Below, piece after piece: positions 3,206-10,694 of a stretch of 64,000 bases of DNA (the stretch's first letter is position 1; every line of letters begins with the position of its first letter). The notes under the pieces were generated by a model. It saw nothing but the letters and a program-made list of their open reading frames with translations. It did not search any database and was not told where the DNA came from. Source of the stretch: Cellulomonas sp. 73-145. GTDB taxonomy: Bacteria > Actinomycetota > Actinomycetes > Actinomycetales > Cellulomonadaceae. The translations under genes and the position numbers were made by a program. The stretch spans positions 1 through 64,000 of the forward strand of contig MKTI01000006.1 of the NCBI GenBank assembly GCA_001898185.1, given 5' to 3'.

Positions 3206-3601
3206 TCAGGCCAGACCGATGCCGCGCGGAGTTCGAACGAAGTCGTCACGGTTGCCCACTCGGGCGTGAATCTGCTGCGCCTCGACCGGCCGACCGTCGC
3301 GCATCCGGTACAGACCGCGACGGTTGATCTCCCTGGCCAGCTCGACGGCGGGCATGACGTGCCCAGGGGTGGACTGCAGCACGGTGCGCATCGCCTCGTG
3401 CAGGGAGGTGCGCACCGCCTCGGCCGGCGCGTCTACCAAGGACAACAGGAACTGCATGGACGCCACCCGGGTCTCCGCTTCCGCGAGCGCGGCAGCCAAG
3501 CGGTCCCTCTCCTCCACGGCGGCGATCAGGTCCTGCTCCACCTCGTCCCGCCGTGCGGCGACGACGTGAGCAACCAACCCGTAGTACCCGTCTGCTTCCA
3601 T
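3206..3601 (-). CDS. Small coiled-coil/winged-helix protein (HARE-like)
   Basis: This protein of about 131 aa has an N-terminal heptad-rich helix (ARRDEVEQDLIAAVEERDRL, then AALAEAETRV) likely to form a coiled coil. Its C-terminal domain ends with YRMRDGRPVEAQQIHARVG and RTPRGIGL, which resembles the HARE/restriction-associated winged-helix domains that bind DNA. The start is set at ATG 3601 because AGGGGAG lies 6 nt upstream; the frame stays open to 3658, but that stretch is the operator-like repeat region. Those repeats, directly upstream, suggest autoregulation. The assignment to a DNA-binding role is inferred from fold-like patterns, not a firm family match. Confidence 0.6.
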   Translation of the reverse strand: MEADGYYGLVAHVVAARRDEVEQDLIAAVEERDRLAAALAEAETRVASMQFLLSLVDAPAEAVRTSLHEAMRTVLQSTPGHVMPAVELAREINRRGLYRMRDGRPVEAQQIHARVGNRDDFVRTPRGIGLA

Positions 3602-3615
3602 CTCGACTCCCCTGG

Positions 3616-3658
3616 GTGCGACTGTGCGACCTCTCCCAAGAGAGTGCGACAGTCGCAC
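3616..3658 (-). promoter_or_regulatory. Cluster of four GTGCGAC heptamers upstream of the wHTH gene
   Basis: On the plus strand GTGCGAC occurs at 3616-3622, 3624-3630 and 3644-3650, and its complement GTCGCAC at 3652-3658. The last two form a perfect 7-1-7 inverted repeat; the first two are direct repeats one base apart. The whole cluster fills the 57-bp gap between the stop codon of the upstream gene (3659) and the wHTH start codon (3601). This is the layout expected of an operator bound by a dimeric regulator, possibly the adjacent gene product. Confidence 0.6.
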
Positions 3659-4904: not shown

Positions 4905-7586
4905 TCACGAGCAGCACGGAGGTCGACCAGCCTCCTCCACACCCAGGCCAACCAGAACGTCCCGAGCCTGAGGCGTTTGTCCTGCTCGTCCCGCGCTGAC
5001 CAGCCCCGGCAGGTGAGCGGGCCCGTCGCCCGACAGGAGGGCGTTGGCGACCGCTACGGCCACCGCCGCAGGGCGCGAGCTCGTCAGGCGTTGGTGGCGC
5101 CACCGAGCTGTCGGCCCGACACCGCTCACGGTGACCAGGTCAGGGTTGTTCCAGCCGACGCACGCCCACCTGCCCTTGTCGTTGGTTGCCCAGACCACGA
5201 TGCCGTTGTGCTCCTGGGCGAAGCCGATCGCTTCCAGCGCCGACAGCTCGGGGTTGCCGGCGGCCTTGTGGATATGCATGGACGAGCTCGAGGGTCGGTG
5301 AACCGTGAAGTCGTTGCGCATGGCCGCTTCGAGCTCAGCAAGCGGGTCGTCACCGGCCAGCTCCTCCAACGTCTCGGACACGTCCTCCACGGTCAGCGGA
5401 CGCCCGTCCTCGGTTCGCAGGTAAGCCGCATACGCCTCGATCATGTTCGGGTCCGCGAGCCGCAGGAGGTCGCGGGTGTCGCGGCGCGCCTCTTGGAACC
5501 GCAGAGTCGGCTCGGAACTGATGGTGACGTCAGTCCGCTGTCTCATCATCGTCAGGCCGATCGCGGCCAGCGAAGCGGCCCGCTGCGCGATCTCTGCAGG
5601 GAGGTCCGCGGTGACCAGGGCGGCGAGCAGGTTGCGAACCAACGTGAACGGTTCGGGATCGTCCACGTCCCAGTTCCCGGTGGACCAGAACCGGAGGGTC
5701 ACGCCCAACGTCCCCAGCTGTCGGAACGGTGAGTCGAGGACAGCGTTGGCGGCCCACTTCACGCACGCTCGCCGACGGGCGCGCCTGGTTCGTTCAGGGT
5801 CGCCGGAATGGTCGATCACCTCGGCGTTCGCGTCCGTATGGTCGATGGCGGTGAGGGTTTCGTCGACGTCCGCGGCGGCTTCGTCGCTGTCGAGCCCAGC
5901 GGCCTGCTCGTCGGTGATGATGTCCGCCCACGGCACCGCGCCACTGTCGCCAGGGCCTGCCTTCGGCACGGCCAGGAGCCACGAGGCGATGTCCGAGCCC
6001 AGCCGTTCGGTGGCCCGGTCTTGCAGCCACAGCCACGGTTGGATTGGTTCCGCGCCGTGGTGGCTTTCGCCGTCGTCAGACCCACCGGAGGTGGCACGGG
6101 CAACCATGGGAGTGTGGGCCGTGGTTGCGTCCAGTGCGAACGCCGCAAGCTCGGTCTGCAGGAGCTCCAGCAGGCCGAGGTCCTCACCGAACAGGTCGTT
6201 GACGTTCGCCCTGTGCAACCGGGACCGTTGGGCGGTCGGGATGGTGCGGGTCAGGACCTTCCGCTCCCCCGTGACGAACATCGCCGCAGTCGGGTTCCCG
6301 TCGGGCATGACGGCCCGAACGCGCGACCCGGGCGGCGACACCACCGCGAACGTGGCTGTGCGAACACCCGCAGGCACGAGGCCGACGGTGGACCACACGT
6401 CGGGATGGTCTTGACGCGCCGCGCCTTCGATCGGCACGTCACTGTCGGCTGGGCGGTTCAGGTGGATGGTGAGCGTGTCGTCCTTGGTGACCGCGGACAG
6501 CACCTGAACGTTGGGCGGGCCCCCCTCTGTCGCCGTGGTGTCCCGCTCCCCGACCAGGACGGGAACGCTGAGCGCGTCCACTGGTTCCCCGCCGGGGAAC
6601 AGCGTGTCCGGAACGGGCCCCGTGACCGCGAGCTCGAAGTTGCCTCCGAGCCCGGCACGACGCAGGAACGCCACGCTGGTCAGGTTCGGACTGCCGGTCA
6701 TCGCACGCCGGTCACCCTCGAGGGTGACCCACTCGATCAGCTTGCCGTGGCGGTATCGGGCGTGCTGAGTGCCGATCGACTCGGGGTCCCTGAGCAGCTC
6801 GACGGTCGCACCGGTCGTCGCGGCATGGTCGGCCAGGACCGAGTCCAACGCGGCCGCGTCCACGTGGGTCCAGCCCGGCTGCACGGCAACGCGCACTCGG
6901 CGCGGGCGCATGCGGGCGATCAGACGACGGACGGCACTGGCGTCAGGGTCATGGAACGCGGCCGTCAGGCACAGCTCTGCGACGTCACCAGCAGGCAGCT
7001 GGTCGATCAGCGGTGCCACCCAGGACGCGTGCACCCGATGACCCGTGTCGATGGGCGGGGCGACGTTCAGCAGGTCATCCAGAAGTGCCACGGTGCGCTG
7101 CACTGCCCTGGCGGTCACCCCGTCGGTCCGCACGGTGCCTTCTAGGGCATTCAGGGCGTTGCGGATGTCACGGACGGCCATGGGCACGCCCTCCCGGTCG
7201 CCAGTGAAGACCGTCAGCAGCTCGCGGTTGTACTGCCAGCCGCCGGTGGTCAAGTTCCCTGAGCCGACAGCCGCCAGAACCCGTTGCGGTCCGACCAGGA
7301 CGGTCAACTTGGGGTGGAACGCGGTCGCCTGGTCCGCGAGCCCGACGTGGTACTCGAGCCCGGCGAGGTTGACCGCACGCACGTCCGGTGCCCAAACCCC
7401 GGCGTCGGCCAGGACAGTGACCCGGGCGCCGCTTGCCCTGAGCGCGCCCAGCAACCGCACCTCGAGGTAGCCCAAGTCCACGTTGAACGTGAGGAACAGC
7501 GCTTCTTCGGCCTGGTGGTCGCGGTGCCCCTCCTCGGCCACCAGGTACGGGTACAGGTTCGCCACCTGGGCGACGGCGCCGCTCAT
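4905..7586 (-). CDS. PLD-fold protein, putative nuclease, 893 aa
   Basis: This large cytoplasmic-looking protein has two phospholipase D-type half-sites in its N-terminal third: HPK at residues 91-93 with GSGNLT at 108-113, and HGK at 280-282 with GSPNLT at 298-303. The Asp of the canonical HxKx4D motif is replaced in both copies, a pattern seen among nuclease-type PLD proteins rather than lipases. The remaining 550 residues are mixed alpha/beta with an acidic stretch (about 560-610) and match nothing I recognise. The start is ATG 7586, which overlaps the preceding gene's stop in an ATGA junction, so the two are translationally coupled. In PLD proteins of mobile DNA, a DNA-degrading defence role is common; here it is inference. 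Confidence 0.75.
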   Translation of the reverse strand: MSGAVAQVANLYPYLVAEEGHRDHQAEEALFLTFNVDLGYLEVRLLGALRASGARVTVLADAGVWAPDVRAVNLAGLEYHVGLADQATAFHPKLTVLVGPQRVLAAVGSGNLTTGGWQYNRELLTVFTGDREGVPMAVRDIRNALNALEGTVRTDGVTARAVQRTVALLDDLLNVAPPIDTGHRVHASWVAPLIDQLPAGDVAELCLTAAFHDPDASAVRRLIARMRPRRVRVAVQPGWTHVDAAALDSVLADHAATTGATVELLRDPESIGTQHARYRHGKLIEWVTLEGDRRAMTGSPNLTSVAFLRRAGLGGNFELAVTGPVPDTLFPGGEPVDALSVPVLVGERDTTATEGGPPNVQVLSAVTKDDTLTIHLNRPADSDVPIEGAARQDHPDVWSTVGLVPAGVRTATFAVVSPPGSRVRAVMPDGNPTAAMFVTGERKVLTRTIPTAQRSRLHRANVNDLFGEDLGLLELLQTELAAFALDATTAHTPMVARATSGGSDDGESHHGAEPIQPWLWLQDRATERLGSDIASWLLAVPKAGPGDSGAVPWADIITDEQAAGLDSDEAAADVDETLTAIDHTDANAEVIDHSGDPERTRRARRRACVKWAANAVLDSPFRQLGTLGVTLRFWSTGNWDVDDPEPFTLVRNLLAALVTADLPAEIAQRAASLAAIGLTMMRQRTDVTISSEPTLRFQEARRDTRDLLRLADPNMIEAYAAYLRTEDGRPLTVEDVSETLEELAGDDPLAELEAAMRNDFTVHRPSSSSMHIHKAAGNPELSALEAIGFAQEHNGIVVWATNDKGRWACVGWNNPDLVTVSGVGPTARWRHQRLTSSRPAAVAVAVANALLSGDGPAHLPGLVSAGRAGQTPQARDVLVGLGVEEAGRPPCCS

Positions 7587-9076
7587 ACGGACCTGCCAGC
7601 GTCGGTGAGCGTCCACTGGCCGTCAACCCGGGCGACCCACCCGACCCCGGACATCACCTCCAAGGCTGACTCCCAGCGCAGGGCCACACCACCGCCGGCC
7701 TCCGCAGAGTCCTTGAACACGTACCCGTCTCGCACGTACACGCGTGCCGGGATCCGCAGCACACCGTTTGGCGTGAATGACGCCTTCCTCTGCGCGATGC
7801 GTTCAGTGCGTTCCACCAGCTGGTGCGTCAACCAGACTGCGAAGTCCCGCAGCGGACGGTCGGCCTGCTCGTTCAGCCGATCCAGCAGCCAGCTTGGCGT
7901 CAGCTGCTGGAAGCGCTCGTCCCTGCTGGTGTGCTTCAAGTACGTCTGGGTGCCCACGCTCTGGAAGTACACCCCCGTGCGTTCGTTCAGCCGCCCGAAC
8001 CGGGACGCCCCGATCATCAGCCAGGACAGCCACCGCTCGGCCGGGGCCAGCGCCTCGATTTGCGCAGAGAACTCCGACCCCACCAGCCCGGTGCCGTCCA
8101 TCCCTGGCGGGCGGGAGTCCATGAACGCTCGGACCGACCCCGCCGGCAGGGTGCTCGCTAGCGCCTCCCCGAGGGCGTCGATGGACATGAACCCTTCGAT
8201 CATCTCCACGAGGTGCCGCCACAAGTTCCGCCAGGCCGTCACGGTCAAGGTCCGCAGGACGACGCCCGTCCAAGCCGGAGTCACGTCGAACTCGTTCAGC
8301 ACGTCGTCGTCGCGCGCGGGACCGAACACCAGCTCACGACTCACCCACCCACCGGTCGGCGTCAGGTCGGTCAGTCGCAGCAGCATCCGCAACGTCTGAG
8401 AACGCCGGTCGTCGTCATGCATGGCGGTGCTCGAGCGGGGAACCAGGATGCGACGCATCATCTGCCCGTCCGCCGAGGTGCGCGCCTGGCACATGCACAG
8501 GTGCTGCGCCGCGACCAGCTCATCCGTGGACAGAACCGACCGGGCCGCCAGGTCGAACAACCCCGCGAACCCTTCGTTCAGTGCGGCCCGATCGGCGTTC
8601 CGACCCTCGACGGTCCGCTTACCTTCGGTGGCCAACAACCCCATGGTGAACTCGGAACCAACGTACGGCCCCCAGAAGCCCCGTTCGGCCTTCGCGTACG
8701 CCCCGTCAGCAGACAGCGCGTCCACGTCCGCGCCACCAGCGAGTCGCGAGCTCAGATGGTCCGACCCGTGCGGGGAACGCAACCCCGCGTGCGCGTCCGG
8801 GTCCGACTGCCCGTGCAGGATCGACACCGCCCCAACGACAACCTCCGCCCGCCGCAGCAGCCGCGTGGTCGCGGAATAGTCCAGGTCGAGCTCGTGCGCG
8901 CGGGCGAACACAGCCGTGTGCAGCGCGTAGTACCGGGCGTGCGGTGTGACGGTGGTGATGCCGGGAAGCAGCTGGGCCACGTTCGCCATCGCTTGGCTCT
9001 CCACCGCCAAGGGGAACCGCCCCGCGAACCGCTTGCTGCCCCCACCAGTCCACAGCGGACCGACCACGCTCGACAA
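7583..9076 (-). CDS. Unknown 497-aa partner of the PLD protein
   Basis: The likely start is TTG 9076, with a perfect AGGAGG at 9081-9086; the frame stays open upstream but there codon content degrades. The protein begins SSVVGPLWTGGGSKRFAG and then has a conserved-looking segment (GITTVTPHARYYALH, ATTRLLRRAEVVVGAV) resembling the opening of DUF6361-type proteins encoded near other actinobacterial nuclease/helicase clusters. The middle is helical; the C-terminal 90 residues look like a winged helix (ALRWESALEVMSG, then WTLTDAGRSV). There is no signal peptide or transmembrane segment. Its 4-bp overlap with the PLD gene implies a joint function. The family is not firmly recognised. Confidence 0.75.
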   Translation of the reverse strand: MSSVVGPLWTGGGSKRFAGRFPLAVESQAMANVAQLLPGITTVTPHARYYALHTAVFARAHELDLDYSATTRLLRRAEVVVGAVSILHGQSDPDAHAGLRSPHGSDHLSSRLAGGADVDALSADGAYAKAERGFWGPYVGSEFTMGLLATEGKRTVEGRNADRAALNEGFAGLFDLAARSVLSTDELVAAQHLCMCQARTSADGQMMRRILVPRSSTAMHDDDRRSQTLRMLLRLTDLTPTGGWVSRELVFGPARDDDVLNEFDVTPAWTGVVLRTLTVTAWRNLWRHLVEMIEGFMSIDALGEALASTLPAGSVRAFMDSRPPGMDGTGLVGSEFSAQIEALAPAERWLSWLMIGASRFGRLNERTGVYFQSVGTQTYLKHTSRDERFQQLTPSWLLDRLNEQADRPLRDFAVWLTHQLVERTERIAQRKASFTPNGVLRIPARVYVRDGYVFKDSAEAGGGVALRWESALEVMSGVGWVARVDGQWTLTDAGRSV

Positions 9077-9146
9077 AGGACCTCCTGGGTGCCGCCCGCA
9101 TTCAACCGCACCAACCCCCGCAGCGTCCCCAGGCGCGGCACTGGCC

Positions 9147-9377
9147 TCAGACTTCACAGCATCGAGCCTGACCCGCTTCACGCTCCGCCCGTGACACCCA
9201 CCGCGGCGACACTGGCCCAGCCTCGCCCGCGTCCTCCACAGTGCCCACCGGCTCCCCATCCCGGAGTACCTCCGCCGCCCACGCGACACCATCAGCCGTC
9301 CGGTGCTGGCGGAGGCCCCGGAGACGGTAGCCGTGCCACGGATCCTGGCTGGTAGGGACGGGCGTAGCGGTTGCCAT
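9147..9377 (-). CDS. Small 76-aa protein at the head of the PLD operon
   Basis: This short frame runs from ATG 9377 to TGA 9147 and lies 70 bp before the 497-aa gene on the same strand. Its core (GVAWAAEVLRDGEPVGTVED followed by AGEAGP) has the strand-turn-strand pattern of small accessory-island proteins of the form DGvaf-x-dG-x-vG-x-v-x-n-x-G-x-gG. No strong ribosome-binding site is seen, so translation may be leaderless or start elsewhere. The protein has two adjacent cysteines near its C-terminus (ARCCEV). It probably belongs to the same transcript as the two large genes; function unknown. Confidence 0.55.
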   Translation of the reverse strand: MATATPVPTSQDPWHGYRLRGLRQHRTADGVAWAAEVLRDGEPVGTVEDAGEAGPVSPRWVSRAEREAGQARCCEV

Positions 9378-9455: not shown

Positions 9456-10385
9456 GTGCTCACCGCGAACGGGGTCGTCCCGAAAGAGGGTCCGTTCCTC
9501 GAGGCGGCCGAGCACTTTCGACGACTGGCCGAAGAACTCTCCGCCTTCCCACCGAATGGTCAGCCCGCTGCGCCGGGGAGCCGCGCGGAGCTTGACGCGG
9601 CTGACCGATCGTTCGACGGACCGTGGGGTCGAGCTACCGCCGAACTCCTGCGCGAGCCGGCGGCCCGGCTGATCCTGGCGATCGAGTACCTCCGCGGGCT
9701 TGCTGCGCTCACGGAAGCAGATCGGGTGACCGTTGGCATCGTGCCGATGATCAGGCCGGCGCTGGCGACGTTCGGTCACCTCTACTACCTCTTCGACCCT
9801 GAGATCGATGTGCGCGAGCGTGTGCGTCGGCGGTTCAACCTACGGCTGGCGTCCCTGGTCGAAGAGCTCTCGATCACCCGCATCCTCGGGTCCGAAGACT
9901 ACGAGCGCACGGCGAAGGAAATCCTCGACATCCGGTGGACCGCGACCAAGCTTGGTTTCGACTACACCACTAGGAAGCGGCGGAAGGGCCAGAAGCAGCC
10001 ATCCGCTCGGTACCTTGGTCATCCCGGGCCCTCGGAGGGGCAGATCGTTGCTGGGGTCCTGCAACCGATGAACGACACGTTCGGTCCCGCTGTCTACCGG
10101 CTTACGAGCGCGGTCACCCACGCGCAGATGCACGGCCTCAAGCCCTTCCTTCATGACCCGGTGGCCACCACGGAGGCGGACGTCGTGACGGCTCAGATCG
10201 GCATGACGCTCCGCATGTTCACGGCTCTCACGGGCTCCGTCGTGTATGCAGCGCACGTGGCCACGAACCGAGTCGCGGGTCACTTCGGTTGGGACACGAC
10301 TTCGTGGGCAACTGAGGCTGAGGCCGCGTTGGCGGCGTGGGACGGGTGGCTGAACGCCGAGCCCCTCGATGCGCCTGTCGGCTAG
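9456..10385 (+). CDS. Hypothetical protein, 309 aa, divergent from PLD operon
   Basis: I do not recognise the family. The sequence is largely helical: an N-terminal helical part, a hydrophobic stretch at about 85-110 (VTVGIVPMIRPALATFGHLY), a basic linker near 175 (TRKRRKGQKQ), and a C-terminal part with His/Met-rich turns (SAVTHAQMHGLKPFLHDP) that resembles abortive-infection or DUF5677-like helical proteins only in style. GTG 9456 follows a TACGTT hexamer by 6 nt and lacks a ribosome-binding site, suggesting a leaderless start. It is transcribed away from the PLD unit and ends 222 bp before the tRNA-Ser 3' end. Confidence 0.65.
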   Translation: MLTANGVVPKEGPFLEAAEHFRRLAEELSAFPPNGQPAAPGSRAELDAADRSFDGPWGRATAELLREPAARLILAIEYLRGLAALTEADRVTVGIVPMIRPALATFGHLYYLFDPEIDVRERVRRRFNLRLASLVEELSITRILGSEDYERTAKEILDIRWTATKLGFDYTTRKRRKGQKQPSARYLGHPGPSEGQIVAGVLQPMNDTFGPAVYRLTSAVTHAQMHGLKPFLHDPVATTEADVVTAQIGMTLRMFTALTGSVVYAAHVATNRVAGHFGWDTTSWATEAEAALAAWDGWLNAEPLDAPVG

Positions 10386-10452
10386 GCAGCGGGTCACGTC
10401 GCATCGGCGGACTCGTGCGCGACCGTAGGCCCAGGGTCTGACACTCCCCAAG

Positions 10453-10508
10453 ACAGTTGGTTGACAGTTGGTTGACAGCCGGATTGACAGCCGATTGACA
10501 GCCAACCG
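10453..10508. repeat. Five tandem 11-12 bp repeats next to tRNA-Ser
   Basis: The units are ACAGTTGGTTG (10453 and 10464), ACAGCCGGATTG (10475), ACAGCCGATTG (10487) and ACAGCCAACCG (10498). The period is close to one helical turn, so identical faces are presented to a protein. The array lies about 100 bp beyond the 3' end of tRNA-Ser, on the accessory side. Arm-type integrase or excisionase binding sites are the likeliest reading. The remainder of 10386-10606 shows nothing else to me. Confidence 0.6.
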
Positions 10509-10606: not shown

Positions 10607-10694
10607 TGGCGGAGGGCAAGGGATTCGAACCCTTGGTGGGTTGCCCCACAACGGTTTTCAAGACCGTCGCCTTCGGCCGCTCAGCCAGCCCTCC
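10607..10694 (-). tRNA. tRNA-Ser (anticodon TGA)
   Basis: Read on the minus strand the gene begins GGAGGGCTGGCTGAGCGG and folds into a long-variable-arm class II tRNA. The acceptor stem pairs GGAGGGC with GCCCTCC. The anticodon loop is CTTGAAA, giving anticodon TGA (reads UCA), flanked by a stem of ACGGT/ACCGT type. The T arm contains GGTTCGAATCC. A G discriminator is followed by an encoded CCA (10609-10607). Its 3' end points at the accessory block, the usual orientation for tRNA genes used as integration sites. Confidence 0.95.

Follow-up and report, generated by a model that had tools for sequence, protein, structure and literature searches.

A conserved two-gene pair of a ZacB-related PLD-superfamily protein and a 497-aa partner, a probable phage-defence module in Cellulomonas

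The window analysed here, a stretch of 64,000 nucleotides from Cellulomonas sp. 73-145, is the start of contig C6 and carries two adjoining large genes on its reverse strand, one for a 497-aa protein and one for an 893-aa protein of the PLD superfamily (Table 1). The reading frames, the ATGA overlap that joins them, and the TTG start with its AGGAGG, all described previously, were re-found in the sequence, and in the alignment this TTG is the same start as that of close relatives (e.g., P0006 and P0010). Both genes are gene-like in the GC content of their codon positions (0.67/0.51/0.87 and 0.73/0.51/0.84). The original prediction was of a three-gene unit that included a 76-aa frame, located 70 bases upstream of the TTG. 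The codon-position GC of this frame (0.79/0.62/0.71) is not gene-like, a measure that is weak alone in so short a frame. Searching six-frame translations of the other 24 loci that carry the pair (14 + 6 + 4, the window itself apart) gave no relative, and the protein database gave two candidates, neither of which passed. Because the frame is without relatives in either set, the unit is the 497-aa and 893-aa pair and not three genes; untraceable in relatives and non-gene-like in codon composition, the 76-aa frame is a doubtful gene, and the three-gene reading is rejected.

Table 1. Positions of the module, its motifs and the surrounding island features in the window
Feature	Positions	Strand	Basis
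497-aa partner gene, ZacA-like position	7583..9076	-	ORF; TTG start, perfect AGGAGG 4 nt before
893-aa PLD-superfamily protein, ZacB-like	4905..7586	-	ORF, motifs, PADLOC, PLD fold
ATGA stop-start overlap, 497-aa stop with PLD-gene ATG	7583..7586	-	Sequence
First PLD half-site, H91-x-K93...GSGN(108-111)...E122	7221..7316	-	Invariant in 41 aligned sequences
Second PLD half-site, H280-x-K282...GSPN(298-301)...N316-x-E318	6633..6749	-	Invariant in 41 aligned sequences
C-terminal strand-strand-helix-strand-strand element, residues 446-490 of 497-aa protein	7607..7741	-	Model secondary structure
76-aa frame, doubtful gene outside the module	9147..9377	-	Codon composition, relatives not found
tRNA-Ser(TGA), likely integration site	10607..10694	-	3′ part repeated at G000:C4:259478-259545
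Transposase gene at contig start	115..1338	+	Pfam Mu-transpos_C_2 and rve

The earlier placement of the pair on the island side of tRNA-Ser holds. The pair lies on the 3′ side of this gene. A second copy of query positions 23-88 of the tRNA-Ser(TGA) region, 97% identical and in the same orientation, lies in contig C4 of the same genome and ends 346 bases short of the contig end. Identity breaks off upstream inside the tRNA and runs to the 3′ end, a pattern that supports an integration repeat; ARAGORN calls the C4 copy a tRNA-Ser too, and it may alternatively be a second gene. GC content is 65.4-69.2% to the left of the tRNA versus 73.0-74.3% to the right. Most simply, this region is read as an island about 11 kb long together with an unassembled insertion sequence, with a presumed join between C4 and C6, and the transposase gene at the contig start is probably the cause of the assembly break inside the island. 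No integrase was recognised in the island, and no helicase or methyltransferase was recognised beside the pair. Direct repeats of the TTGACAGCC type, which look like integrase arm sites, occur near the tRNA-Ser island end (window 10450-10503) and beside the C4 tRNA repeat (L041, 14598-14617). Downstream of the PLD gene, a 150-aa frame (3206-3658, reverse strand) matches HARE-HTH, a domain known from restriction endonucleases, just below the cut-off (Pfam E = 1.8e-5) and is possibly a further island gene, while a divergent 309-aa frame between the module and the tRNA (9456-10385, forward strand) has gene-like codons and no Pfam match.

The pair is the unit that is conserved. The 497-aa gene is followed by the PLD gene, adjoining and on one strand, in 25/25 loci (the window; L003-L012; L030-L033; L037-L038; the plasmids L044-L049; and the diverged L050-L051), and across these loci it is the pair, not the proposed trio, that is kept. 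The two diverged loci were located via their PLD genes, and their partners match the profile of the 497-aa family (A1) at E 3.3e-9 and 3.5e-13, respectively, in called frames. In the protein database, the 497-aa query found 72 proteins and the PLD query 75, with the window's own cluster in each. The length of the longest contig served as a proxy for a shared contig; compared in this way, 71 and 75 rows gave 29 coincidences, and the distances within these matched pairs correlate (r = 0.949). Coupling was tested in 15 loci: an overlap of 4, 8 or 13 bases is possible in 12, a 3-base gap separates the genes in L005, and L012 and L031 showed neither. The PLD gene of L012 (11365-15823, forward strand) is split in two pieces around a 433-aa frame that is perhaps an insertion sequence; a Mutator-family transposase, which may or may not belong to L012, is among the neighbouring frames scanned.

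The family is rare, occurring in 5/396 genomes of the phylum and 3/221 of the family, the window's own included. Searching from the PLD side, 8/396 phylum genomes match at 1e-10; five have the partner, in two (G343 and G075) the partner is diverged, and the eighth (G341) carries no more than a shorter PLD gene whose neighbour is doubtful. This last locus (L052), in which the PLD gene encodes 391 aa and the next gene 432 aa (A1 profile E 0.093), was rejected as too short and too weak, and a weakly matching 444-aa PLD gene in a genome of the same genus (G009; L002/L034) was not counted as a pair. The pair is present on plasmids. Phage records gave no match to it, and none of 21 pattern matches in viral contigs is a relative. 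Current annotation overlooks the pair, as six plasmid records illustrate: the 497-aa gene is a "hypothetical protein" in all six, and the PLD gene is so named in five and called a "phospholipase D family protein" once. No description of the pair was found in the literature searched, and searches there for DUF6361 and BPTD_3080 found nothing.

The PLD protein carries H91/K93 with G108-S109-N111 and H280/K282 with G298-S299-N301, confirming the two half-sites first noted, and these HxK...GSxN...E half-sites are kept in 76/76 PLD proteins (75 database rows, one being the window's own cluster, and the window protein), which is more than chance. In the structure model, the PLD fold extends over residues about 1-346, with the two half-sites forming one double PLD domain; the protein thus combines features of PLD (HKD) enzymes, namely two HxK half-sites with Asn/Glu and a double PLD fold. 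Searches with the PLD profile found no credible relative of known structure (best E 0.12). Neither HxK is followed by x4-Asp, in agreement with the original prediction. BfiI and Tdp1 replace this Asp. The Glu following each GSxN is invariant in the family (41 aligned sequences), and PLD restriction nucleases are described by their HxK motif in the available text of three papers (PMC4081073, PMC4267653, PMC7913695). On these two grounds, the missing Asp should not be taken as an argument for inactivity. The 893-aa protein is a probable nuclease. The fold is also common to phospholipases and phosphatidylserine synthase, and the original prediction had named lipid metabolism as the contrary outcome. 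The fold is compatible with an enzyme acting on lipids or other phosphodiesters without a defence role; it is the genomic context alone that makes this unlikely, as the family is rare and resides on plasmids and an island, and in relatives the pair sits inside BREX and behind restriction-modification genes. PADLOC matches of the PLD set at E 0.01 (ZacB, PDC-M27B, DrmC, PbeA, and DpdK) are all to defence models, PADLOC being a library of known or candidate defence models only. Overall, we consider a metabolic role very improbable.

The AlphaFold2 model of the 497-aa partner has a mean pLDDT of 90.2, and Foldseek returned no match to it at 0.001; membrane transporters in its top rows (E 0.47 and above) were dismissed as noise. 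By sequence, the partner has no credible relatives of known structure (best E 1). One PDB match stood out, weakly, to the DNA-binding domain of a nicking endonuclease, and the C-terminal element of the model can be read as a winged helix. The protein is possibly DNA-binding, and its probable role is that of a DNA-recognition subunit; an N-terminal recognition fold of the type IIS-like Nt.BspD6I/FokI kind is a tentative reading. Its family is well conserved, with 42 invariant positions in 35 sequences. The window protein matched no library family (Pfam, PADLOC, NCBIfam), and matches of its family to Cas8f, Csy1, and PDC-S01, each from a single member, were judged to be chance. The original statement that the unit has no recognised identity stands for the Pfam cut-offs and NCBIfam and falls for PADLOC, where ZacB and ZacA models match.

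Fetched loci of the Azaca system (PADLOC models PDLC03828/03829/03830) begin with ZacA (about 400-430 aa), presumably a DUF6361 protein, and continue with ZacB (about 620 aa) and then ZacC (about 1050-1100 aa). ZacB is the best PADLOC model for the window PLD protein (E 1.7e-7, residues 42-322), it is matched by 41/41 aligned PLD members at E 0.01 or better, and a profile comparison of the PLD family with ZacB gave E 2.6e-9 (probability 96). By its sequence, the PLD protein can be placed as a distant relative of ZacB. The relation of the partner to ZacA appears weak. The window protein itself has no ZacA match, while 20/35 relatives match at E up to 1 (best 6.8e-7); 4/10 partner proteins match at 0.1 over 44-50 residues around a PGxTTVTxxARYY motif, and the profile comparison gives bare support (E 0.0021, probability 13). 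The ZacA profile finds 2/72 partner proteins at 1e-3 and 0/2130 shuffles, and in reverse, the A1 profile on ZacA reaches E 0.017 at best versus 0.17 for the best of 2000 shuffles. The likeness to Azaca also extends to layout, as a ZacA-like gene precedes a ZacB-like gene on one strand, and the motif matches ZacA at the same, N-terminal place. In contrast, the ZacA likeness is confined to about 50 residues, and the window PLD protein and partner are about 270 aa and about 100 aa longer, respectively, than in Azaca loci L025/L026.

The window genome also lacks the third Azaca gene, ZacC, a helicase according to the available text of PMC12278908. The ZacC model has no match anywhere in this genome; it matches in 6/14 control genomes and is therefore not too strict. 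Of six other pair genomes, three gave short weak matches to this model and three none; every match was distant from the pair, and even the closest, in G476, lay about 34 kb off. When three loci were used to build a ZacC profile, it found nothing at E 1e-2 in the window, 14 other pair loci, L037, L038, and L051. It did match a DEAD helicase in L044, located on the opposite strand at about 7 kb from the pair (5.1e-10), and, weakly, a 1127-aa helicase-like gene just upstream of the pair in L050 (1.1e-6 in the called frame, 1.2e-4 in six-frame translation). As these searches gave no ZacC in the genome or beside the window pair, the module is not Azaca as defined; it probably works like the ZacA/ZacB part of that system. 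With no helicase, a two-gene relative of this kind reduces the system to its ZacA/ZacB core and opens that core to testing.

Around the relatives, 119 neighbouring frames (16 loci) were compared with PADLOC, and 186 models match at 1e-10; the 25 models listed, which include type I restriction, BREX, a DISARM-type helicase, MADS, Mokosh, and Leo, are each matched by 1 to 3 proteins. From 15 loci, twenty large neighbours, chosen by size and with no random-neighbour control, were scanned singly, and 11/20 match defence models, in 8/15 loci (L005, L006, L010, L012, L030, L032, L033, and L038, with no match in L004, L007, L008, L009, L011, L031, and L037), noting that ordinary genes, too, can be hit by the PADLOC models for helicases and methyltransferases. 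In G347, PglX is separated from the pair by about 2.2 kb that hold an unassigned frame, and the pair is followed by BrxC, which starts 42 bases past the PLD gene, and by a PglZ match, all on one strand; size and position allow this to be read as a complete type 2 BREX array. No PglX, PglZ, or BrxC was found by Pfam in ten frames around the window pair. In L012, the pair is preceded on its own strand by type I M and, more weakly, R genes, and a 301-aa gene separates it from R. Several further neighbours were observed. A PLD-helicase-like gene (PADLOC PLD_Helicase, PbeA) lies beside the pair in L005 (14356-17655, reverse strand), with an MkoA-like gene upstream. CHAT-domain proteins adjoin the pair on Streptomyces plasmids (L044, 16058-21286; L047, 14286-18140), together with CATRA conflict-system proteins in L044. 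L033 (4157-8517, reverse strand), from a genome of the same phylum with 27% GC (G184), holds a diverged pair with a type I restriction-like gene nearby.

These neighbours raise the main alternative, in which the pair would depend on a helicase or methyltransferase that an adjacent defence operon or the host supplies, with the window copy being a stranded remnant or working with host proteins in trans. ZacC provides Azaca with such a helicase, and a helicase-like gene lies next to the pair in L010 (PADLOC DrmD/DpdE), in L051, where the PLD gene overlaps at its end with the gene of a DExH-motif protein, and in L050, where an NPPW-motif protein and the helicase-like gene precede it. Likewise, an annotated DNA methyltransferase and restriction endonuclease follow the pair after 45 bases on plasmid pS2b, and PglX and BrxC flank it in G347. 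However, the ZacC searches were negative in the window's genome, in 14 other pair loci and in L037, L038, and L051, and the neighbours vary by locus, which fits a self-sufficient module; dependence on a helper is plausible, yet on balance unlikely. As a separate observation, L050 (63-10160) holds four co-directional genes, in which the 1127-aa helicase-like protein also contains a PLD half-site and is followed by the diverged pair, and this set may be a larger sister system.

The constant pairing in 25/25 loci, the defence genes near relatives, and the relation to ZacB and, weakly, to ZacA together support a defence role, so the candidate defence system originally proposed survives as a pair, its trio having been lost. 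We conclude that the pair is probably a small, uncharacterised phage-defence module related to Azaca, without its helicase. Its mode of action is moderately likely to be that of a two-subunit restriction-type DNA endonuclease directed against phage or plasmid DNA, an activity predicted here. The two proteins would bind one another, with the 497-aa protein recognising DNA or a DNA state and conferring specificity, and the PLD protein would cut the DNA using both half-sites of its single chain as one active site. By analogy with known PLD enzymes, cutting would proceed via a covalent phospho-histidine step. An alternative is that the PLD protein is a toxic nuclease restrained by its partner and freed on infection, in the manner of suicide defence. 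The translationally coupled two-gene layout and the patchy, mobile distribution would suit a toxin-antitoxin-like pair, but the partner is large, strongly conserved, and encoded first, and the present data hold no sign of toxicity or inhibition, making this improbable. Returning to the endonuclease, a more far-reaching version is a tentative possibility: the pair would be a self-contained two-subunit defence nuclease of an undescribed type, a split restriction enzyme with a type IIS-like recognition subunit and a single-chain double PLD, able to work without an ATPase or its own methyltransferase, which serves as an exchangeable effector cassette of BREX, type I restriction-modification, and helicase-methyltransferase operons, with Azaca as one branch. 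If the pair is such a portable nuclease effector, it would show defence operons swapping their cutting parts.

Among the closest known systems, Azaca is itself counted among those of unknown mechanism in the available text of a survey of actinobacterial defence (PMC10482375). PDC-M27B, a PADLOC candidate-defence model, is also matched by 41/41 PLD members (best 1.3e-9, below ZacB), but over only residues 71-125 of the window protein. The PLD part weakly resembles DISARM DrmC (22, 2 and 1 of 41 members, depending on the model) and Dpd DpdK (5/41), fewer members than match ZacB, and no DISARM or Dpd genes were found by Pfam among ten frames neighbouring the window pair. HKD-type nucleases also occur in BREX; a BREX survey reports them mainly as BrxL fusions and helicase fusions, and its available text does not describe a separate two-gene pair (PMC12839542). 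CglI/NgoAVII-type and BfiI/SauUSI enzymes share with our pair an HxK-type PLD nuclease and a restriction context, and as far as the available text of the sources goes, CglI also joins a PLD nuclease to a separate partner (PMC4267653, PMC7913695, PMC4081073). In these enzymes, however, nuclease and recognition domain (B3) form one fusion protein, and the CglI partner is an ATPase, whereas the 497-aa partner carries no ATPase signature in family searches and would itself supply recognition.
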